Assembly (NCBI RefSeq): GCF_900141895.1
Contig: NZ_FQYT01000010.1
Location: 1 to 64,000, forward strand
Reading direction: 5' to 3'
DNA length: 64,000 bases
Origin: Parasporobacterium paucivorans DSM 15970
GTDB lineage: Bacteria; Bacillota; Clostridia; Lachnospirales; Lachnospiraceae
Within the stretch, counting starts at the first letter, position 1. Every line of letters starts with the position of its first letter. The position numbers and the translations under genes are program-made. Shown one piece after another: positions 1 through 53,837 of the stretch. The notes below the pieces were generated by a model. It saw only the letters and a list, made by a program, of their open reading frames with translations. It was not told the origin of the DNA and made no database searches.

Positions 1-291
1 GGTCCCTATCCGGCGTGGGCGCAGGATATTTGAGAGGAGCTATCCCTAGTACGAGAGGACCGGGATGGACTGACCTCTGGTGCATCTGCTGTCTTGCCAA
101 AGGCATGGCAGAGTAGCCAAGTCGGGACGGGATAAACGCTGAAGGCATCTAAGCGTGAAGCCCCCCTCAAGATGAGATATCCCATGGCACAAGCCAGTAA
201 GACCCCTTGAAGACGACGAGGTTGATAGGTCAGGGGTGTAAGTACAGCAATGTATTCAGCTGACTGATACTAATAGGTCGAGGGCTTGACC
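1..291 (+). rRNA. 23S ribosomal RNA, 3' end (partial)
   Basis: This is the last part of domain VI of 23S rRNA; the gene enters from outside the window. The sarcin-ricin loop core AGTACGAGAGGACC is visible near position 49, and the 3' end reads AATAGGTCGAGGGCTTGACC, the usual end of Bacillota 23S. The exact mature 3' end is inferred by family resemblance and may be off by a few bases. The following 120 bases hold no recognisable 5S rRNA. Confidence 0.95.
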
Positions 292-412
292 AAGAGGTCA
301 TAGGCGGATGTCTGAGTTTCTTCTGTGTGCAGTTTTGAAGGTGCAGTCTTCAGAATTGATAAATCAGCGGCCTTATGCTATATCTGGATAAGGTTTTTAG
401 CATATAATATAA

Positions 413-483
413 AGGGGATTGGTCAAGTGGTATGACAAGGGTCTCCAAAACCTTTAGTGGGAGTTCGATTCTCTCATCCCCTG
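413..483 (+). tRNA. tRNA-Trp (CCA anticodon)
   Basis: A cloverleaf folds with acceptor AGGGGAT/ATCCCCT, a three-pair D stem, anticodon loop CTCCAAA (anticodon CCA) and T arm GGGAG-TTCGATT-CTCTC. The discriminator is G. The 3' CCA is not encoded, so CCA-adding enzyme must complete it. It lies about 120 bp after the 23S gene and just before a strong terminator, so it is probably the last gene of the rRNA operon. Confidence 0.93.
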
Positions 484-489
484 TTTTTA

Positions 490-534
490 AGAAAAACCTC
501 AGAAACCTTATAAAAAGGGTTTTGAGGTTTTTTT
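490..534 (+). terminator. Intrinsic terminator of rRNA/tRNA-Trp unit
   Basis: An AAACCTCA..AAACC strand pairs with GGTTTTGAGGTTT and is followed by a run of seven T. It sits directly after tRNA-Trp and before the stress-protein gene, so it most likely ends the ribosomal transcript. Confidence 0.85.
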
Positions 535-626
535 GTTCAAATTTGTTTACTTATGAAAATATATATTATATATTGAGGTTAAGAGATACAAGGCATCGAT
601 CATTCTTTAATGAGGAGGTCAAAAAA

Positions 627-1046
627 ATGAATAAGAAGATATTGGTTGCTTTAGACGATTCGGATTATGCCAAAAATGTTATGAATCAGGCATTGGAACT
701 GGCAAGGTCTTATCAGGCAGAGCTTTTGGGAGTTTCCGTGATTGACACCAGATACCTGGTAGGAAGTGATGAATCCAACCAGTATCTGATTGGAATTTGG
801 AAAGCCTCCTATCAGGCTTTAATTGATGAATGTGTAAAGCTTGCGAAAAAATCAAATGTAAACTATATTCATGAAATACTCGAGGGAAATCCTTCAGAGG
901 AAATCCTGAAACATGCAGAAAAAAATAACGTCGAGATCATAGTAATGGGAAGCCTTGGTAAAACAGCTGCGGCAGGTATTGCCATAGGCAGTGTGACCCA
1001 GACGATATCAGCCCTTAGCAAGTGTTCTGTTTTTATTGTTAAATAA
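627..1046 (+). CDS. Universal stress protein, UspA family
   Basis: A 139-residue single-domain UspA protein of normal family length. The N-terminus KKILVALDDSDYA has the beta-strand and acidic pair (D10, D11) of the nucleotide site. The C-terminus has the ATP-binding pattern G-2x-G-9x-G(S/T) at G108, G111 and G121-S122, so it is of the ATP-binding type rather than the non-binding UspA type. The start is the ATG at 627, behind AGGAGG at 613-618; a longer frame reaching into the tRNA gene is not credible. It stands alone after the rRNA terminator. Usp proteins generally act in the cytoplasm under starvation or stress; the specific role here is unknown. Confidence 0.9.
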   Translation: MNKKILVALDDSDYAKNVMNQALELARSYQAELLGVSVIDTRYLVGSDESNQYLIGIWKASYQALIDECVKLAKKSNVNYIHEILEGNPSEEILKHAEKNNVEIIVMGSLGKTAAAGIAIGSVTQTISALSKCSVFIVK

Positions 1047-1123
1047 TAGTTAATATAAACACTGAAATGCAGGTTGGGATACAAAGACTTTATGCACAAA
1101 ATATGAAATTGAGAGGTAAAGAG

Positions 1124-1360
1124 ATGATAGTCAAAAGTCAGGATGGAAATAAGATTACAGATAGCAGGACATTTATGGTTTGCCGTGAAGTGAAAGGCCT
1201 AACATCCTCGAAAAAAGAATATTACGTGATATCTGCGATTATCAATTTCGAAGATCGGCTAACGATGGGGATATACGATACAGAAGAAGACGCGAAGAAA
1301 GCATTAGATTCTCTTATGCATGCGCTGGCATCAACAGGAGATGAATGTTATAAAATGTAA
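1124..1360 (+). CDS. Small conserved-type hypothetical protein (78 aa)
   Basis: The protein starts MIVKSQDG and runs to 78 residues. The start at 1124 is chosen because GAGAGG at 1111-1116 gives good spacing. It has a central strand-rich part (YYVISAII) and a helix-like end with DTEEDAKKALDSL. The order resembles small clostridial proteins in which an MIV-x-x-QDG start leads to a tail of the type YxTEExAKxxL; I know no function for them. No signal peptide or membrane segment is seen. It may share a transcript with the UspA gene 77 bp upstream. Confidence 0.65.
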   Translation: MIVKSQDGNKITDSRTFMVCREVKGLTSSKKEYYVISAIINFEDRLTMGIYDTEEDAKKALDSLMHALASTGDECYKM

Positions 1361-1525
1361 ACCCAGCAGAATCGTGAGGAAACAGCACAGAACCACCAGG
1401 GAAAACAGAAGACTTCAAAAATCTTTATCAGGAGTTCGGTTTTCTTTTTCACTGTCAAGTGTATAGAAAAAAGGGCAGTGCCAGGCTTTATCTGCTGAAT
1501 GCGTAAAGTTTTGGAAATATATGGG

Positions 1526-1565
1526 AATCTCCCAAAATCTTTTTATAAGACATTGGGAGATTTTT
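1526..1565 (+). terminator. Intrinsic terminator
   Basis: A perfect 10-bp stem AATCTCCCAA/TTGGGAGATT has a 17-base loop and ends in a T run. It lies in the 279-bp gap between the small hypothetical gene and the acyltransferase gene. The rest of that gap shows no gene; a weaker GAAAAC..GTTTTC-T5 hairpin may occur around 1400-1450. Confidence 0.75.
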
Positions 1566-1639
1566 GGTGTGCCCGGCATGGGCATAATTTATATGCAGAT
1601 AAAATGTGCAAATTTTAAGTTGACAGTATGAGGTAATTT

Positions 1640-2692
1640 ATGACAACAAAATATATTCAACCCAGATCCGGAAGGGTGATGATTTTTGACTATTTGAAGG
1701 CAGTTGCCATATTTCTGGTCATTGCAAATCATACTCCCTGGTCGGATCAGGAGCTAAGGAGTCCGTTCGTTCCATTTCTGATAAACATGGCGGTCCCCAT
1801 ATTTATGATCGTTTCGGGATATACACTGGCACTGACCTCTGAAAGACAATATGACGAGAATATTAGCAGCCTTTATAAACTGCAGATTATGAAAAAGAAA
1901 ATTTCAAGATACCTGCTTCCATATTTCATGATCTTTATTTTGCAGATTTTAGCGGAAGTATTCATAAGAAAAGCCGGTCTGGAATTTAGAGGCGTTTTTT
2001 CATCCTTTATAACAGGAGGGTATGGACCTGGCAGCTATTATATACCGGTCTTTTTTCAGGTCATTCTTCTATATCCATTTATTTTCCGCTTTTTTCTGAA
2101 AGGCAGCCTAAGAGGACTGTTCATCTGCGGCATTCTGAATATTATGTATGAAATAGCCGTTACGATAGTCTTGAACAATTTAGGGGCTTATAGACCGGTC
2201 ATTGGGGAAACCTATCGGCTGATCATGCTGAGATATTTGTTCATGATAGCACTGGGCACCTGGCTTTATTTTAATAAAAACGTCAGAATCAAGAAAAGTA
2301 CACTGGCTATTATGTTTGCGGTCGGGTTGTCCTACCTGCTTTTGCTTCAATACACGGATTTCAGACTGCGTATTTTTAATTTTTGGCAATATACCTGCAT
2401 GATTACAGCATTTTATATTTTTCCGATATTTTATCTGGTTTTCAGGAAATTTCGCAAGATAAGAATGAACAGTTTTGTATCGGACATACTTATGCTGATC
2501 GGAAAAGCTTCTTTCCATATATATCTTGTGCAGATGCTCTATTATCACTATTTTGGATTCAGGATATGGAGGATAATCACGGCAGATAAGGTCATTCAGA
2601 TGCTGATAAATATTCTGATATGCTGCCTGGGAGGCATAGCGCTCCTGAAGCTGGAGCAATTACTCAGAGGTTCGTCTGCAGACCGCAAATAA
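1640..2692 (+). CDS. Acyltransferase 3 family integral membrane protein
   Basis: A 350-residue polytopic membrane protein with about ten hydrophobic segments. The N-terminus (FDYLKAVAIFLVIANHTPW) carries the histidine in the first membrane helix that is conserved in acyltransferase-3 (OafA/YrhL-like) proteins. The family moves acetyl or other acyl groups onto sugars, peptidoglycan or lipids at the membrane; the acceptor here cannot be told from sequence. The ATG at 1640 follows GAGG with slightly tight spacing. It is monocistronic between a terminator and the aminopeptidase gene, 68 bp downstream. No sugar-pathway genes are adjacent. Confidence 0.8.
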   Translation: MTTKYIQPRSGRVMIFDYLKAVAIFLVIANHTPWSDQELRSPFVPFLINMAVPIFMIVSGYTLALTSERQYDENISSLYKLQIMKKKISRYLLPYFMIFILQILAEVFIRKAGLEFRGVFSSFITGGYGPGSYYIPVFFQVILLYPFIFRFFLKGSLRGLFICGILNIMYEIAVTIVLNNLGAYRPVIGETYRLIMLRYLFMIALGTWLYFNKNVRIKKSTLAIMFAVGLSYLLLLQYTDFRLRIFNFWQYTCMITAFYIFPIFYLVFRKFRKIRMNSFVSDILMLIGKASFHIYLVQMLYYHYFGFRIWRIITADKVIQMLINILICCLGGIALLKLEQLLRGSSADRK

Positions 2693-46932: not shown

Positions 46933-48570
46933 ATGCCGATTACGGAAATTTTAGAACATAATTGCAAAATGTATGGAAACAAAACATGCCTGGTAGAGGT
47001 GAACCCGGAGCTCAAAGAGATGAGAAGGGTTACCTGGAAGGAATTCGAGCTGACTGAGCCCGCTCATACCCATTATTATCGCAGAGAAATAACCTGGAAT
47101 GTGTTCAATGAAAAGGCTAACCGACTGGCTAATATGCTATTGAACATTGGGGTTAAAAAAGGAGATAAGGTTGGGATTCTTCTGATGAACTGTCTGGAGT
47201 GGCTGCCTATCTATTTCGGAATTCTCAAATCAGGGGCGTTGGCTGTTCCACTGAATTTTCGCTATGCGCCGGATGAGATTTTATATTGTGTGAACCTGGC
47301 GGATGTAGATGTCCTTATTTTTGGCGAAGAATTTATCGGACGCGTAGAGGATATTGCAGATTCTGTCAGTCAGAAGAGTCATCTTATATATGTGGGTTCC
47401 GGAGCCTGTCCAACCTTTGCAGATGACTACAGGGAACTCACAGCCAACTGCTCCAGTTCCTCCCCGAATATTGAAATTAATGATGACGACGATGCAGCCA
47501 TCTATTTTTCATCGGGGACCACAGGGTTTCCAAAGGCGATATTGCACAAGCATACCAGCCTGATGCACGCCTGCCGGGTGGAACAGCACCACCATGGCCA
47601 GACAAAAGATGACGTATTTCTCTGCATTCCTCCGCTATATCATACAGGAGCAAAGATGCACTGGTTTGGCAGCTTTCTAGCGGGTGGGAAGGCTGTGCTG
47701 TTAAAGGGAACGAGACCGGAATATATCCTGGATGCCGTATCCAAAGAGAAGTGCACAATTCTTTGGCTGCTTGTTCCATGGGCACAGGACATTTTAAATG
47801 CGCTGGACAGCGGGGAACTAAAAAAAGATGATTACAGGCTGGATCAGTTAAGACTGATGCATATCGGCGCACAGCCAGTGCCTCAAAGCCTTATTAAGCG
47901 ATGGAAGGAATACTTTCCAAATCATGATTATGATACAAATTATGGTCTGAGTGAATCTATCGGTCCTGGATGCGTCCATTTAGGAATTGAAAACATCCAT
48001 AAAGTGGGAGCCATAGGCGTGCCTGGATATGGGTGGGAAGCTAAAATCGTCAATGAGGACAAGGAGACAGTAATTAAAGGCGATGTGGGGGAATTGTGCG
48101 TAAAAGGTCCCGGCCTGATGACCTGTTATTATAAAGATCCAAAGGCAACTGAAGAAGTGCTCAAAGACGGCTGGCTTTTTACCGGTGATGTGGCCATGCA
48201 GGATGAAGACGGATTCATTTTCCTTGTTGACCGAAAGAAAGATGTGATTATAAGCGGAGGGGAGAATATCTACCCTGTCCAGATAGAGGATTTTTTGAGC
48301 GCACATCCGGCCATAAAAGATGCGGCAGTGATTGGTCTGCCCGACGCAAGGCTTGGCGAACAGGCCGTTGCCATCATCGAGATTAAGAAAAACCACACCT
48401 GTTCAGAAGAGGAAATTCTGGAATATTGCAAAAAACTTCCCCGGTTCAAAAGGCCGCAGAAAATCGTGTTTGCGGATGTACCAAGGAACCCGACTGGAAA
48501 AATTGAAAAACCGAAGCTAAGGGCAACGTACGGAGCCTTGAATCTGGTAGACGCACAGAATAAAGCCTGA
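46933..48570 (+). CDS. AMP-dependent acyl-CoA synthetase/ligase
   Basis: A 545-residue class I adenylate-forming enzyme. The AMP-binding motif is YFSSGTTGFPKAILHKH; later GLSESIGPG, GWLFTGDVAMQDEDGF and DRKKDVIISGGENIYP mark the core; the C-terminal catalytic lysine lies in NPTGKIEKPKLR. It activates a carboxylic acid, most likely a fatty or other medium-size acid, to its CoA ester. The substrate is unknown. AAAGGAG precedes the ATG. Confidence 0.92.
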   Translation: MPITEILEHNCKMYGNKTCLVEVNPELKEMRRVTWKEFELTEPAHTHYYRREITWNVFNEKANRLANMLLNIGVKKGDKVGILLMNCLEWLPIYFGILKSGALAVPLNFRYAPDEILYCVNLADVDVLIFGEEFIGRVEDIADSVSQKSHLIYVGSGACPTFADDYRELTANCSSSSPNIEINDDDDAAIYFSSGTTGFPKAILHKHTSLMHACRVEQHHHGQTKDDVFLCIPPLYHTGAKMHWFGSFLAGGKAVLLKGTRPEYILDAVSKEKCTILWLLVPWAQDILNALDSGELKKDDYRLDQLRLMHIGAQPVPQSLIKRWKEYFPNHDYDTNYGLSESIGPGCVHLGIENIHKVGAIGVPGYGWEAKIVNEDKETVIKGDVGELCVKGPGLMTCYYKDPKATEEVLKDGWLFTGDVAMQDEDGFIFLVDRKKDVIISGGENIYPVQIEDFLSAHPAIKDAAVIGLPDARLGEQAVAIIEIKKNHTCSEEEILEYCKKLPRFKRPQKIVFADVPRNPTGKIEKPKLRATYGALNLVDAQNKA

Positions 48571-48659
48571 TATTAAAAGTGGAGCACATCAAATTGATGT
48601 GTTCCTTTATATTTGGGGAAGTATCATTTTAGGCGAGTTTTTTGCTTTATGGTAAAAAG

Positions 48660-48685
48660 AAAAAAGCCCTGAAATTCAAGGCTTT
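48660..48685 (-). terminator. Intrinsic terminator of the tRNA-Val/tRNA-Met unit
   Basis: On the minus strand AAAGCC pairs with GGCTTT over an 11-base loop and is followed by T residues, 8 bp after tRNA-Met. Confidence 0.75.
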
Positions 48686-48692
48686 CTCTTAG

Positions 48693-48766
48693 TAGCGGAA
48701 ATTGGATTTGAACCAACGACACCACGGGTATGAACCGTGTGCTCTAGCCAACTGAGCTATTCCGCC
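48693..48766 (-). tRNA. tRNA-Met (CAT anticodon), elongator type
   Basis: The cloverleaf starts GGCGGAA and ends TTCCGCT plus discriminator A, so pair 1-72 is G-U. The anticodon stem CACGG/CCGTG holds loop TTCATAC. The first pair excludes initiator tRNA. The fold resembles elongator Met of Clostridia rather than lysidine-modified tRNA-Ile2, which cannot be fully excluded. CCA is not encoded. Confidence 0.92.
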
Positions 48767-48786
48767 ATATAAAATTATGTTACTAA

Positions 48787-48859
48787 TGGGACCTATAGGG
48801 CTCGAACCTATGACCCTCTGCTTGTAAGGCAGATGCTCTCCCAGCTGAGCTAAGATCCC
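48787..48859 (-). tRNA. tRNA-Val (TAC anticodon)
   Basis: Acceptor GGGATCT/AGGTCCC, D arm with AGCTCAGCTGGGAGAGC, anticodon loop CTTACAA (TAC) and T arm ATAGGTTCGAGCCCTAT. The discriminator is A; no CCA is encoded. It is first in a two-tRNA unit, 20 bp before tRNA-Met. Confidence 0.95.
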
Positions 48860-48879
48860 TGAGAACCAACTGCTTAAAC

Positions 48880-48908
48880 AGTATATTATCATTCAAAAAA
48901 AAAGTCAA
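48880..48908 (-). promoter_or_regulatory. Promoter of the tRNA-Val/tRNA-Met unit
   Basis: On the minus strand TTGACT (48908-48903), a 17-bp spacer containing a T run, and TATACT (48885-48880). On the plus strand a TATAAT at 48946-48951 may serve ispF. Confidence 0.85.
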
Positions 48909-48982
48909 CCCTTTTTTAAAACTTTTAAACTTAAAAATATTATGATATAATTACATCAAAATTCAGTTGAAAGAGGAATAGT

Positions 48983-50392
48983 ATGAGAGTAGGAATGGGA
49001 TATGATGTCCACAGGCTCGTGGAGGGCAGACGGTTGATTCTGGGTGGCGTGGAGATTCCTTATGAAAGGGGTTTGGAAGGGCATTCGGACGCAGACGTGG
49101 TGACGCATGCCGTTATGGACGCCTTGCTTGGGGCTGCCGGACTAGGGGATATAGGAGAACATTTTCCGGATTCAGATGAGCAGTATAGGAATATTTCCAG
49201 CATACGGTTACTGGAAAAGGTCGGAGATAAGTTGAGAAAGAAATGGTTTCAGATCAGCAATATAGATGCGACCATTATTGCGCAGCATCCTAAATTATCG
49301 CCTTACAAGAAGGCAATGATAAAAAACATCTCGGCAGCCCTCGGAATTCCGGAAAACCAGATTAATATAAAGGCGACCACGGAAGAGGGGATGGGATTTA
49401 CAGGTAATGGAGAAGGGATCTCTGCTCATGCAATTACCCTCCTGACTGAAAACAGCCCGGAGGTTGTTTATGATGAGATCATAAGTGACAGCAGAAGGCT
49501 TCATGAACTGAAATCTGTGGATTATAACATGTTGAAGTGGTACTTTTCCTTACGTCATCCGGGAACCTGTGAGAGTGTCATTTTGGATGCATATCTGTGG
49601 AGACATTATTATAACACCAGATATTATTTTAATGATAAAGGGCTGATGTGGATATTTACAAATAAAGATGAGGTGTTTACCAACATCCCGCTTTGCCGCA
49701 ATGAAGATTTGCAGGAGTGTTTTGAGGATGTCCAGGACTATTTCAACACAAAGCTGGGTATGAAGCTGCGTGTGTATCTTGCTGATGAGGAAGCGGTAGA
49801 TATCCTCAACCTGCCGGAAGATAAATATATTGTGGAAGAGGACAGACGGTATTTCGACTATATTTACGATGCCGAAAGTCTGAGGAATCTTGCGGGCAGG
49901 AAGTTCCACAAGAAAAAGAACCATGTAAATTCTTTCAAAAAGGAATATGAAGGCCGATACGAGTTCAAAAGGCTTGGCTGTGAGAATATTCTGGAAATAT
50001 TGGTTTTTTTAAAGGAATGGAACGCAGAAAGGGATATTGAAGACGAATATAACCGGGTTGATTACGAACTATTGGGGATCGAATCTGTGCTCAAAAATTG
50101 CCAGATTCTGAAATTCAGGATGGGCGGTATTTATCTGGATGGAAAACTGGAGGCTTTTTCTATGGGAAGTTATGCGGATGAAGAAAAAACCGCTTACATT
50201 CATATTGAAAAGGCAAACCCAAGGATTAATGGCCTGTATGCATTCATCAACCAGCAGTTCCTGATAAATCTGTTTCCTGAGGCTGAAAAGGTGAACAGGG
50301 AGGACGATATGGGTCTGGAAGGCCTTAGAAAGGCCAAACTGTCATATCAGCCGATTGCCCTGGTAAAGAAATTCAATATCATACAGAAGTAG
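48983..50392 (+). CDS. ispF: IspF fused to a DUF2156 (aminoacyl-transferase-like GNAT) domain
   Basis: A single 469-residue frame. Residues 1-157 are a complete 2-C-methyl-D-erythritol 2,4-cyclodiphosphate synthase of the MEP isoprenoid pathway: metal ligands D8 and H10 in GYDVHR, H42 in the [18 protein letters not shown] region, and the [16 protein letters not shown] end. From about residue 175 to the end it matches DUF2156, the fold of MprF/FemX-like lysyl transferases ([55 protein letters not shown]). IspF alone is normally about 157 residues. The junction contains a consensus CCCGGAGG with an ATG 6 bp later (49470), but that ATG is out of frame. A GNAT gene follows. Confidence 0.9.
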
Positions 50393-50401
50393 GGAAAAAG
50401 A

Positions 50402-51463
50402 ATGATCAGATATCTGCAGGAAAGTGAAAAACGGCTTTCGCGCCCCCTTTATGAAGAGGTGTTCGGGGATACCGAAAAGTTTACGGATTTTTATTACAAT
50501 ACCAGGGTAGGTGGAAACGCGATACTGGCGGACATGCAGGATGGCAGCGTGGTATCCATGCTGCATCGATGTCCCCGTTCTCTTACAATCAATGGTAAAG
50601 AAGTAGAATCGGAATATGTATTTGCCGTAGCCACAAGCCTGGAGCACCGCAGGAGTGGGCGGATGGGGGCGTTGATGAGAAGGGCTCTCTGCGATATGAA
50701 TAGTGCCGGACTTCCTCTGGCCTATTTGGCGCCGGTGGACTATAAGGTATATCTGCCTTATGGGTTTGCTTGTGTTTACTCTGCCTATGGATGTATGGAA
50801 AAAAACAAATATGTTGAGGCGACGGGATACAATCTGGTAGCGGCCCAAGAGGCCGATATTGAAGAGCTTGTCGGATTTTCGGATAAACTGCTTCACGAAA
50901 ATCTCCGTATGTACTCATCCCGAAATTTTGAATATTACAGTAATATGATTCAGCAGCTGGAGGCGGAAAATGGTTTTCTGGCTATCCTGAAGAATAATCA
51001 GGGCATATGTGCGTACGGCTACCTGAGCAATGATGAATCTCTGCAAATCAGCGAATTTGTGTGCCTGCCTATGGCCAGAGATGCTTATATATCTGCCGTC
51101 TGCAATCGGATGGGCTGCCATGAGATCCGCATCAATGGTGTGCTTTTCCCCTGGGATGGTTGTGAGGACCAGCCAAAGGTCATGGCGCGCGTAATCAGGC
51201 CGGAAGCCTTGACATCATATATAAGGACAAAGGAAAAAATCAACCTGTGCCTCAAACTCAACGATCCTGTCATTCGGGAAAATAACAATACGTTCATTAT
51301 AAAAAGTGACGCCTTTTCCTGCAGTATCAGAAAAAGCGCCAGCAGCCCCGATTTGGAGATGGATATAGAAACTTTTTCAAAATGGCTGACGACCGGATTG
51401 GCAATGGACGGACTCCCGGATCTGGTTGGAAATAAAGGTGTGTTTCTGAATGAAATTGTGTAA
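50402..51463 (+). CDS. GNAT family N-acetyltransferase (Eis-like)
   Basis: A 353-residue protein. The acetyl-CoA loop region reads VFAVATSLEHRRSGRMGALM, followed by YLAPVDYKVYLPYGFACVYS, the pattern of the Eis/large GNAT group with a second GNAT-like part and an SCP2-like tail. The substrate is unknown. It starts 9 bp after the IspF-DUF2156 gene and ends just before the T-box, so it is the last gene of that unit. Confidence 0.8.
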   Translation: MIRYLQESEKRLSRPLYEEVFGDTEKFTDFYYNTRVGGNAILADMQDGSVVSMLHRCPRSLTINGKEVESEYVFAVATSLEHRRSGRMGALMRRALCDMNSAGLPLAYLAPVDYKVYLPYGFACVYSAYGCMEKNKYVEATGYNLVAAQEADIEELVGFSDKLLHENLRMYSSRNFEYYSNMIQQLEAENGFLAILKNNQGICAYGYLSNDESLQISEFVCLPMARDAYISAVCNRMGCHEIRINGVLFPWDGCEDQPKVMARVIRPEALTSYIRTKEKINLCLKLNDPVIRENNNTFIIKSDAFSCSIRKSASSPDLEMDIETFSKWLTTGLAMDGLPDLVGNKGVFLNEIV

Positions 51464-51475
51464 GTGAATAATTGC

Positions 51476-51504
51476 TTGACAAATGAAAGAGAATTGCATA
51501 AACT
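51476..51504 (+). promoter_or_regulatory. Promoter of the cysE-cysS operon
   Basis: TTGACA (51476-51481), a 17-bp spacer and TAAACT (51499-51504). An alternative TTGCAT/TATGAT pair (51494-51523) is also possible. Confidence 0.6.
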
Positions 51505-51519
51505 TATACATATTTGATA

Positions 51520-51765
51520 TGATAGAGGCTGTGAACGGAAAGAGTAGTTTTTATGAAGCTGAAAGAGAAGGATTATCGTCGGCTGAAAGTAATCCTGAGC
51601 TAGTGGAAATGAAGTGCCTCCGGGAGCCTGTTTTGCAAAAGGGGAGTGACCCAAGTAGTGAAGCACGCCTGGCATACGTTACATGCATTGAGTGGAGGGC
51701 AACCTTCATAAGAGTGGAACCACGGAAGATATTTCGTCTCTTGTTTAGAGGCGATTTTTTTTATT
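51520..51765 (+). promoter_or_regulatory. Cysteine-specific T-box leader
   Basis: A T-box riboswitch that reads the charge of tRNA-Cys. Stem I closes with AGGCT/AGCCT; the AGTA of the loop-E motif is in AGAGTAG; the specifier loop has GAA-G-TGC, giving specifier TGC (Cys) at 51615-51617. The T-box AGAGTGGAACCACG is at 51711-51724, and its TGGA would pair with the UCCA end of tRNA-Cys, whose discriminator is U. The terminator stem TCGTCTC/GAGGCGA (51734-51754) with eight T follows. Downstream are cysE and cysS, which fits. Confidence 0.95.
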
Positions 51766-51784
51766 TTACAGGAGAAAACTAAGT

Positions 51785-52441
51785 ATGGGTTTTATAAAAA
51801 ATTTCAAAGATGAACTCAGCGTCATCAGGGAACGTGACCCTGCCATAAAATCACCGTTGGAGGTGCTTCTGTACCCTAGCTTTTGGGCGATTATAAAGTA
51901 CAGGAGAGCCCATAAACTCTATTTAAAGGGGCATTATTTCCTGGCAAGATGGATTTCCCAGAGGACTGCCAGAAAGACGGGGATTGAAATCCATCCCGGT
52001 GCAAAAATCGGAAAAGGCCTATTTATCGATCACGGACATGGTGTTGTCATCGGAGAAACCGCCGAAATTGGCGATAATGTCACTATGTATCAGGGGGTTA
52101 CCCTGGGCGGCACTGGCAAGGAAAAGGGAAAGAGGCATCCAACCATAGGGGACAATGTCATGATTGCCGCAGGGGCGAAAATACTGGGGTCTTTTACGAT
52201 TGGGGATAATTCCAAAATTGGTGCCGGGTCTGTGGTACTGGAGGCCGTGCCGCCTAACTCCACAGTTGTGGGTGTGCCTGGACGAATCGTAAAAATGAAG
52301 AACGAAAAAATTCCCAGAACGGATCTTGATCAGATTCTTCCAGATCCGGTTAAAGCGGATCTTAATCAGTTGATGCGCGAAAATAGGGCGATGAGGGAAG
52401 AGATTAGAAAAATCAAGGAGAAATTGAATGAAAATATATAA
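51785..52441 (+). CDS. cysE: Serine O-acetyltransferase
   Basis: A 218-residue short-type CysE. The left-handed beta-helix is seen in the hexapeptide run from [18 protein letters not shown]; catalytic His lies in [13 protein letters not shown]. It makes O-acetylserine from serine and acetyl-CoA, the first step to cysteine. A charged coiled tail ([16 protein letters not shown]) ends it. It overlaps cysS by 14 bp and is under T-box control. Confidence 0.96.
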
Positions 52442-53837
52442 TACACTGACAAAATCAAAAGAAGAGTTCAAACCAGTCGAAGAAGGAAAGGTAAGGATAT
52501 ATGTATGCGGTCCAACTGTGTACAACCTGATCCATATCGGAAATGCCAGGCCGATGATTGTGTTTGACACAGTAAGAAGATATTTGGAATACAAGGGATA
52601 TGAGGTGAATTTTGTTTCCAATTTCACCGATGTGGACGATAAAATCATAAAAAAAGCGAACGAAGAAGGCGTCTCTTCCAAGGAACTTTCGGAAAGATAC
52701 ATAGCTGAATGCAAGAAAGATATGGAAAACATGAATGTTCTTCCCGCTACTCATACGCCTTTGGCGACAGAGGAAATCGAAGGGATGATAGAAATGATTG
52801 CCATCCTGATTGAAAAAGGCTATGCATATGACGTAAATGGAACCGTTTACTTCAGAACCCGTAAATTTGGAGGATATGGAAAGCTCAGCAAGAAGAATAT
52901 GGAGGATCTGGAAGCCGGACACCGTGAAATCAAAGTGGCCGGCGGTGGGGAGAAGGATGATCCCCTGGACTTTGTTCTCTGGAAGCCGAAGAAAGAAGGG
53001 GAACCATGTTGGGAATCGCCCTGGGGGGACGGAAGACCCGGCTGGCACATTGAGTGCTCGGTTATGTCCAGAAAGTATCTGGGAGACCAAATTGACATTC
53101 ACGCGGGGGGAGAGGACCTGATCTTTCCTCATCATGAAAATGAAATCGCCCAGAGTGAGGCGGCAAACGGAAAGGACTTTGCCAAATACTGGATGCATAA
53201 CGCTTTTCTGAACATTGATAACCGTAAAATGTCCAAATCAGAGGGGAATTTCTTTACCGTCAGGGATGTTGGTGAAAAATACGATCTTCAGGTCCTGCGC
53301 TTCTTTATGCTCAGCGCCCATTACAGGAGCCCTTTAAATTTCAGCGAAGAGCTCATGCAGGCCTCCAAAAACGGTCTTGACAGAATTTTGACGGCTGTTG
53401 AAAATCTGGAATATCTGATTGCAAACGGGGAGAAGGGCAAAGTGGAAACCGAGAAGGAAAAAGAAAGCCTGCGGGATTCAGATACCTTTATTGTAAAATT
53501 TGAAGAGGCGATGGAAGATGATTTCAATACTGCCGATGCAATTGCGGCTGTATTTGAACTGGTGAAATTCACGAATACAGCTGTATCCGAGGAATCCTCT
53601 CCCTCATATCTGGAGGGACTGAAGCAAAGGATTACGAAGCTTTGCGGCATACTTGGAATCATAACGGAAAAAGAAAAAGAGATTCTGGATGAAGAAATCG
53701 AAGGCCTTATAAATGAAAGACAGATAGCCAGAAAAGAGAAGAATTTCAAACGCTCCGACGAAATAAGGGATATGCTTGCTGCTCAGGGGATTATATTGGA
53801 AGATACGCGCGAGGGAGTCAAATGGAAAAGGAGTTAG
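52428..53837 (+). CDS. cysS: Cysteinyl-tRNA synthetase
   Basis: A 469-residue class I synthetase. The zinc-site Cys27 in YVCGPTVYN, the HIGH motif HIGN (36-39), the later WHIECSVMS and [10 protein letters not shown] zinc ligands and [10 protein letters not shown] are all present. Charging of tRNA-Cys is thus coupled with its own T-box control. The end overlaps mrnC by 16 bp. Confidence 0.97.

Follow-up and report, generated by a model that had tools for sequence, protein, structure and literature searches.

A single open reading frame joins IspF to a DUF2156 domain in Parasporobacterium paucivorans, probably through fusion of neighboring genes

Does a gene that joins IspF, an enzyme of the MEP pathway, to a DUF2156 domain reveal a new metabolic link, or does it reflect an accident of gene order? 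The question is raised by the first 64,000 nucleotides of contig NZ_FQYT01000010.1 of Parasporobacterium paucivorans DSM 15970 (assembly GCF_900141895.1), hereafter the window, in which a single open reading frame (ORF) runs on the forward strand from an ATG at position 48983 to a stop codon ending at 50392 and encodes 469 amino acids without a stop between the halves. The first-pass annotation of this DNA had described a complete IspF at the N terminus joined to a DUF2156 domain, and profile searches upheld both parts of that description. In the Pfam search, YgbB/IspF (PF02542) covered residues 1 to 154 (model positions 1 to 154 of 155, E value of 5.6e-70) and LPG_synthase_C (formerly DUF2156, PF09924) covered residues 203 to 464 in the same frame (E value of 6.4e-39, 134.2 bits against a cut-off of 27.5), while the NCBIfam ispF model TIGR00151 gave 212.5 bits (cut-off of 116.45). 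Accordingly delimited, the ORF comprises an IspF domain (residues 1 to 157, positions 48983 to 49453, forward strand), a joint (residues 158 to 169, 49454 to 49489), and a DUF2156/LPG_synthase_C domain with a tandem-GNAT fold (residues 170 to 469, 49490 to 50389). The presence of an IspF-DUF2156 fused ORF in the sequence is confirmed.

Both halves were well conserved when the sequence from the window was excluded from the reference sets. The IspF half agreed with the 25 other aligned IspFs at all 52 of their invariant columns and showed no departure at the 73 columns conserved in at least 90% of them; D8, H10, S35, H42, D46, D56, T133, and E135, which we take to be the metal and substrate residues of IspF, were all present and invariant across the alignment. 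The DUF2156 half likewise retained all 29 columns invariant in 27 other aligned DUF2156 proteins, with two conservative departures (K to R and Y to F) at the 45 columns conserved in at least 90%. When the full-length protein was modelled (mean pLDDT of 91.4, pTM of 0.68), two confident domains were obtained, with pLDDT below 50 at residues 160 to 168 and in a short stretch at residues 135 to 137 and mostly confident values in the rest of the domains. Reading backward from codon 172, the nearest in-frame ATG, GTG, or TTG was M137, within IspF, and the next in-frame starts downstream of the joint were a GTG at codon 179 and an ATG at codon 183, within the DUF2156 N terminus. Thus, among the start codons scanned around the joint, none was evident from which a full DUF2156 protein could be translated separately in frame.

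The genome (2.44 Mb in 52 contigs; completeness, 97.5%) contained one match to PF02542 and one to PF09924, both of them in the fused ORF, and ispG was present on another contig. The IspF half is probably needed and functional, because it is the sole PF02542 match in a genome that has ispG. Two tRNA genes lie 5' of the fused gene on the opposite strand, and a promoter-like site at 48924 to 48951 on the forward strand (TTTAAA, a spacing of 16 nt, and TATAAT, with TG before the second hexamer) is a possible promoter of the fused gene by consensus match; such matches numbered 18 within positions 48500 to 52500, compared with 9.0 ± 2.8 in shuffles. On the other side, a GNAT gene at 50402 to 51463 on the forward strand begins 9 nt past the stop of the fused gene, so the first-pass annotation was correct in placing a GNAT gene next to the fusion. 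Its product combines Acetyltransf_9 and SCP2_2 (Pfam), presumably an Eis-type arrangement, and was matched by the NCBIfam Eis models only below their cut-offs. A T-box leader at 51522 to 51744 (Rfam RF00230, 102.1 bits) lies ahead of cysE-cysS. As cysE has this leader of its own, the fused gene and the GNAT gene may form a two-gene unit.

To find other fusions, the window protein was searched against 1,087 genomes (overlapping sets of 61, 397, 392, and 391), and no second stop-free IspF-DUF2156 match was present among the matches listed, although a fusion of highly diverged sequence might have escaped detection. This agrees with the first-pass annotation, whose author knew of no such fusion. 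The search at the genus level covered the P. paucivorans genome alone. Several candidates were rejected. In one genus, four genomes (G430, G496, G584, and G510) each gave one match spanning both domains but with 1 to 3 stops, indicating tandem genes (ORF lists were read for loci L055 and L058, and L056 and L057 were assessed by script). For G429, listed with ispF, DUF2156, and a 531-aa open frame, the DNA at locus L075 showed separate genes. A 598-aa frame in G022 proved to be a DUF2156-GNAT ORF, a 537-aa frame in G076 proved to be an IspF-IspE ORF, and the frame in G578 was, as judged by eye, a separate downstream cysS-like gene. In the open-licence PMC literature, we found no joint mention of DUF2156 with IspF and no description of the fusion, and passages on IspF fusions in two papers named only IspDF. 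The fusion has so far been seen in one genome only and was not found in the searchable literature.

Known fusions of IspF provide a useful comparison. IspDF fusions are described as common in PMC13001223 and as occasional in PMC10663253. Like the fused ORF, IspDF places IspF in a larger polypeptide with another enzyme; however, the partner in IspDF belongs to the MEP pathway, whereas DUF2156 is not a known MEP enzyme, and the IspF region is C-terminal in IspDF (positions 227 to 379 of 387 in the NCBIfam model) but N-terminal in the window. No IspD domain was found in the fused ORF, in which only the IspF part of the NCBIfam IspDF model was matched. In addition, the search recovered the IspF-IspE fusion of about 535 aa in G076 (L118, positions 217 to 1824, reverse strand), with IspF at the N terminus (141.3 bits, cut-off of 116.45) and IspE at the C terminus (181.5 bits, cut-off of 138.7). 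This genome is placed in the same family as P. paucivorans, and its fusion resembles that in the window in giving IspF a C-terminal partner. That partner, however, acts in the MEP pathway, and the IspF is a distant one, with 34% identity to the query IspF with a C-terminal tail described below.

The origin of the fusion was examined through gene order at 59 related DUF2156 loci. These represent 39 genera, have at least 39% identity, and include neither duplicates nor the window itself. Since they are the strongest matches found with the window protein, the fractions given here do not represent an unbiased sample. Left out of the 59 were the window (L001), the duplicates L022, L025, L026, and L027 (of L041, L004, L056, and L057, respectively), the second copies L076 and L079 to L082, and loci fetched for ispF only; loci L028 to L031, with less than 39% identity, also lay outside the set and had neither an ispF nor a GNAT neighbor. 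The proposal that relatives might carry the two as adjacent genes was borne out: in 21 of the 59 loci, representing 14 of the 39 genera, ispF lay directly upstream of DUF2156 on the same strand, separated from it by −14 to 135 nt according to our choice of start. Families f1 (to which the window belongs), f4, f21, and f22 of the order all include loci of this kind. In the closest relative, G148 (64 to 65% identity in DUF2156), ispF, DUF2156, and GNAT are three separate genes; the ATG chosen for DUF2156 lies 17 nt past the ispF stop, and an earlier ATG lies 2 nt past that stop. In the MAG RGIG9121 (58%), ispF and DUF2156 overlap in different frames and are followed by GNAT, cysE, and cysS. The fusion therefore looks like a join of neighbors, and we assign a probability of roughly 0.7 to a lineage-specific fusion of two neighboring co-directional genes.

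The partner most often found with DUF2156 was another gene. A GNAT gene was adjacent to or fused with DUF2156 in 55 of the 59 loci (36 of 39 genera), whereas tblastn at 1e-4 with the window GNAT detected none adjacent in L003, L008, L009, and L039. The usual partner of DUF2156 is thus GNAT, not IspF. In four loci, from 3 of the 39 genera (G028, G245, G339, and G370, all of family f1), DUF2156 and GNAT formed one ORF; reading frames were read for two of these and domains searched for all four. They resemble the window fusion in having a related DUF2156 (48 to 52% identity) in a multidomain chain, but their partner is an Eis-like GNAT at the C terminus, compared with IspF at the N terminus in the window. 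The ORF of G022, with a more distant DUF2156, is a fifth case outside the 59. Single polypeptides combining DUF2156 with GNAT (Acetyltransf_9), of about 600 to 750 aa, were recorded at L007, L037, L040, L054, and L117. Loci L003, L008, and L039 carried ispF-DUF2156 with no adjacent GNAT detected, and in L012, L018, and L019 ispF was followed by a GNAT gene related to that of the window with no DUF2156 between them.

The survey of relatives also revealed a Cys-rich tail on many related IspFs, of about 25 to 40 residues and carrying a Cys motif. Among 30 non-window IspFs remaining after de-duplication, a long tail was present in 17, all with several Cys residues and 16 fitting a C-x-x-C type pattern; the tail was missing in the other 13, including five family f1 relatives with the gene order of the window (G305, G350, G707, G694, and G320). 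In 70 genomes of the family, 55 of 67 matches to a tailed query, its own match included, reached query position 171 or beyond in a count made by eye. A C-x2-C-x1-2-C motif was found in 26 of the 30 loci best matching that query, a set selected for the tail, which favors it, and having several genomes in common with the 30 IspFs. The motif was often CxxCxGC, for instance CAGCQGC. Tailed IspFs were recorded at L002, L003, L008, L012 to L015, L018 to L021, L032, L034, L038, L039, L042, L078, and L088 to L116, comprising many of the family of the window and one of f4 (L008), and the tail was absent from the IspFs read in f6, f21, and f22 and from some of f1. The tail possibly binds a metal or an Fe-S cluster. 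A search of open-licence PMC papers for a Cys-rich IspF C terminus gave only a paper unrelated by its title.

The joint of the fusion carries no Cys motif, yet it resembles the start of such a tail. Residues 155 to 172 resembled the long IspF tails (mean score reached by 6 of 1,000 shuffles), and residues 169 to 183 weakly resembled DUF2156 N termini (32 of 500 shuffles), so the join probably lies near residues 168 to 170. In frame +1, a GGAGG is followed after 6 nt by ATG ATG AGA TCA TAA (49459 to 49484, forward strand; GGAGG-ATG at 49459 to 49472), which may be a relic of a former DUF2156 start or may have arisen by chance.

These details bear on whether an error of assembly or base calling has merged two overlapping or adjacent genes such as those of the relatives. 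The fusion is known from one genome, in 52 contigs, the only one of its genus covered by the search; the gaps and overlaps in relatives can be a few nucleotides (1 nt in G305, −14 nt in G707, and −11 nt in RGIG9121); and the GGAGG-ATG start at the joint would also fit a small indel. However, both sides read in one clean frame, and the Cys tail seen in the G148 and RGIG9121 IspFs is absent at the joint. A single miscalled base would therefore not suffice to hide the arrangement of these two relatives, although it could hide the one found in relatives without the tail, such as G305. We consider an artefact unlikely. A one-base indel as the sole cause of the fusion was likewise not preferred, given that tail-like residues are kept up to about residues 168 to 170 while the Cys motif and the intergenic piece are absent, even though the Cys tail is also missing from certain relatives that share this gene order.

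Under the preferred reading, a fusion of neighboring genes, a change at the joint would have eliminated both the stop of ispF and the start of DUF2156, along with the Cys-rich IspF tail if the ancestor carried one. The five tail-less f1 relatives with the gene order of the window provide a counterpoint: loss of the tail need not be part of the fusion event. The IspF half would still make MEcPP, since it is the sole IspF found and the genome also has ispG, and the DUF2156 half would sit on a flexible linker and keep its own activity.

What that activity might be was considered from structure. The model of the DUF2156 domain alone (pLDDT of 94.7) matched best to 2HQY (BT_3689 of Bacteroides; Z score of 34.5, rmsd of 2.2, 294 aligned residues, 29% identity), which was also the sole PDB sequence match at an E value of 0.01 (E value of 1.4e-36) and by far the strongest in a profile search of the PDB (8.8e-65; next match, 0.27). 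BT_3689 is comparable to the DUF2156 half in fold and length but is freestanding, with about 300 residues and no IspF. By closest sequence and fold, the DUF2156 half is of the BT_3689/HPB8_1270 type, an assignment made by comparison with 2HQY alone; it belongs to the LPG_synthase_C superfamily on the basis of a Pfam score above the cut-off and a tandem-GNAT fold. Next came MprF C-terminal domains (Z scores of 17.5 to 19.4, 10 to 15% identity), then FemX and other tRNA-dependent peptide synthases (about 14 to 16), with acetyl-CoA tandem GNATs below them (13.5 or less). The MprF/FemX fold class suggested by the first-pass annotation was thereby corroborated. The C-terminal domain of MprF/LysPG synthase shares its Pfam family and fold with the DUF2156 half, but the N-terminal membrane flippase domain of MprF had no match in the fused ORF, where Pfam detected YgbB and LPG_synthase_C only.

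Two readings of these data were weighed. That the DUF2156 half is an aminoacyl-tRNA-dependent transferase like MprF or FemX, merely joined to IspF, is consistent with its Pfam family, with the ranking of MprF and FemX above the acetyl-CoA tandem GNATs, and with a review that counts DUF2156 enzymes among the aminoacyl-tRNA transferases acting on lipids (PMC9437257). Against this, PMC10700544 reports that acetyl-CoA is present in BT_3689 (2HQY), by far the nearest solved relative, and gives (lysine) acetyltransferase as the most likely role of HPB8_1270, a DUF2156 protein of H. pylori; moreover, the GNAT partner falls in acetyltransferase Pfam families, and the ORF has no flippase match. We regard the tRNA-dependent reading as possible but doubtful. 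Acetyl transfer by the DUF2156 half appears at least as likely as lipid aminoacylation, because its nearest relative is reported with acetyl-CoA and its partner belongs to an acetyltransferase family. In a fusion of neighboring genes, the DUF2156 half would most likely transfer acyl (acetyl) groups in a CoA-dependent manner, acting with the Eis-like GNAT of the next gene.

The link from isoprenoid synthesis to lipid or peptidoglycan aminoacylation proposed in the first-pass annotation did not hold up, given GNAT as the usual partner, the acetyl-CoA reported in BT_3689, and the acetyltransferase role reported as most likely for HPB8_1270. More generally, the fusion might couple the MEP pathway to DUF2156 activity, by channelling or by acylation that regulates IspF, and the recurrence of ispF beside DUF2156 in four families and the position of DUF2156 in the place of the Cys-rich tail of many related IspFs would fit such coupling. 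However, ispF was not beside DUF2156 in 38 of the 59 loci, 37 of which had GNAT (flanks of 1.5 to 3 kb, shorter in L067 and L073 at a contig start), and nine ispF loci (L012 to L020) had no DUF2156 nearby (flanks of up to 1.5 kb, some shorter). We know of no substrate common to IspF and DUF2156. Coupling is highly improbable, and a functional MEP-lipid link is not supported. In a more specific and very improbable scenario, the Cys tail of the family's IspFs (CxxCxGC) would be a regulatory or docking element, swapped here for the next-door DUF2156, whose acylation with GNAT would act on or couple to the MEP step; if true, this could mean, for example, acetyl-CoA-dependent control of IspF.

The fusion is probably a product of gene order and not the sign of a new pathway link; what its halves have in common is probably a transcript and one polypeptide chain, not a reaction. 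It physically ties a transferase to an enzyme of which no second copy was seen in the genome. For freestanding DUF2156 proteins, the more useful lead is their regular Eis-like GNAT companion, which is sometimes part of the same chain.
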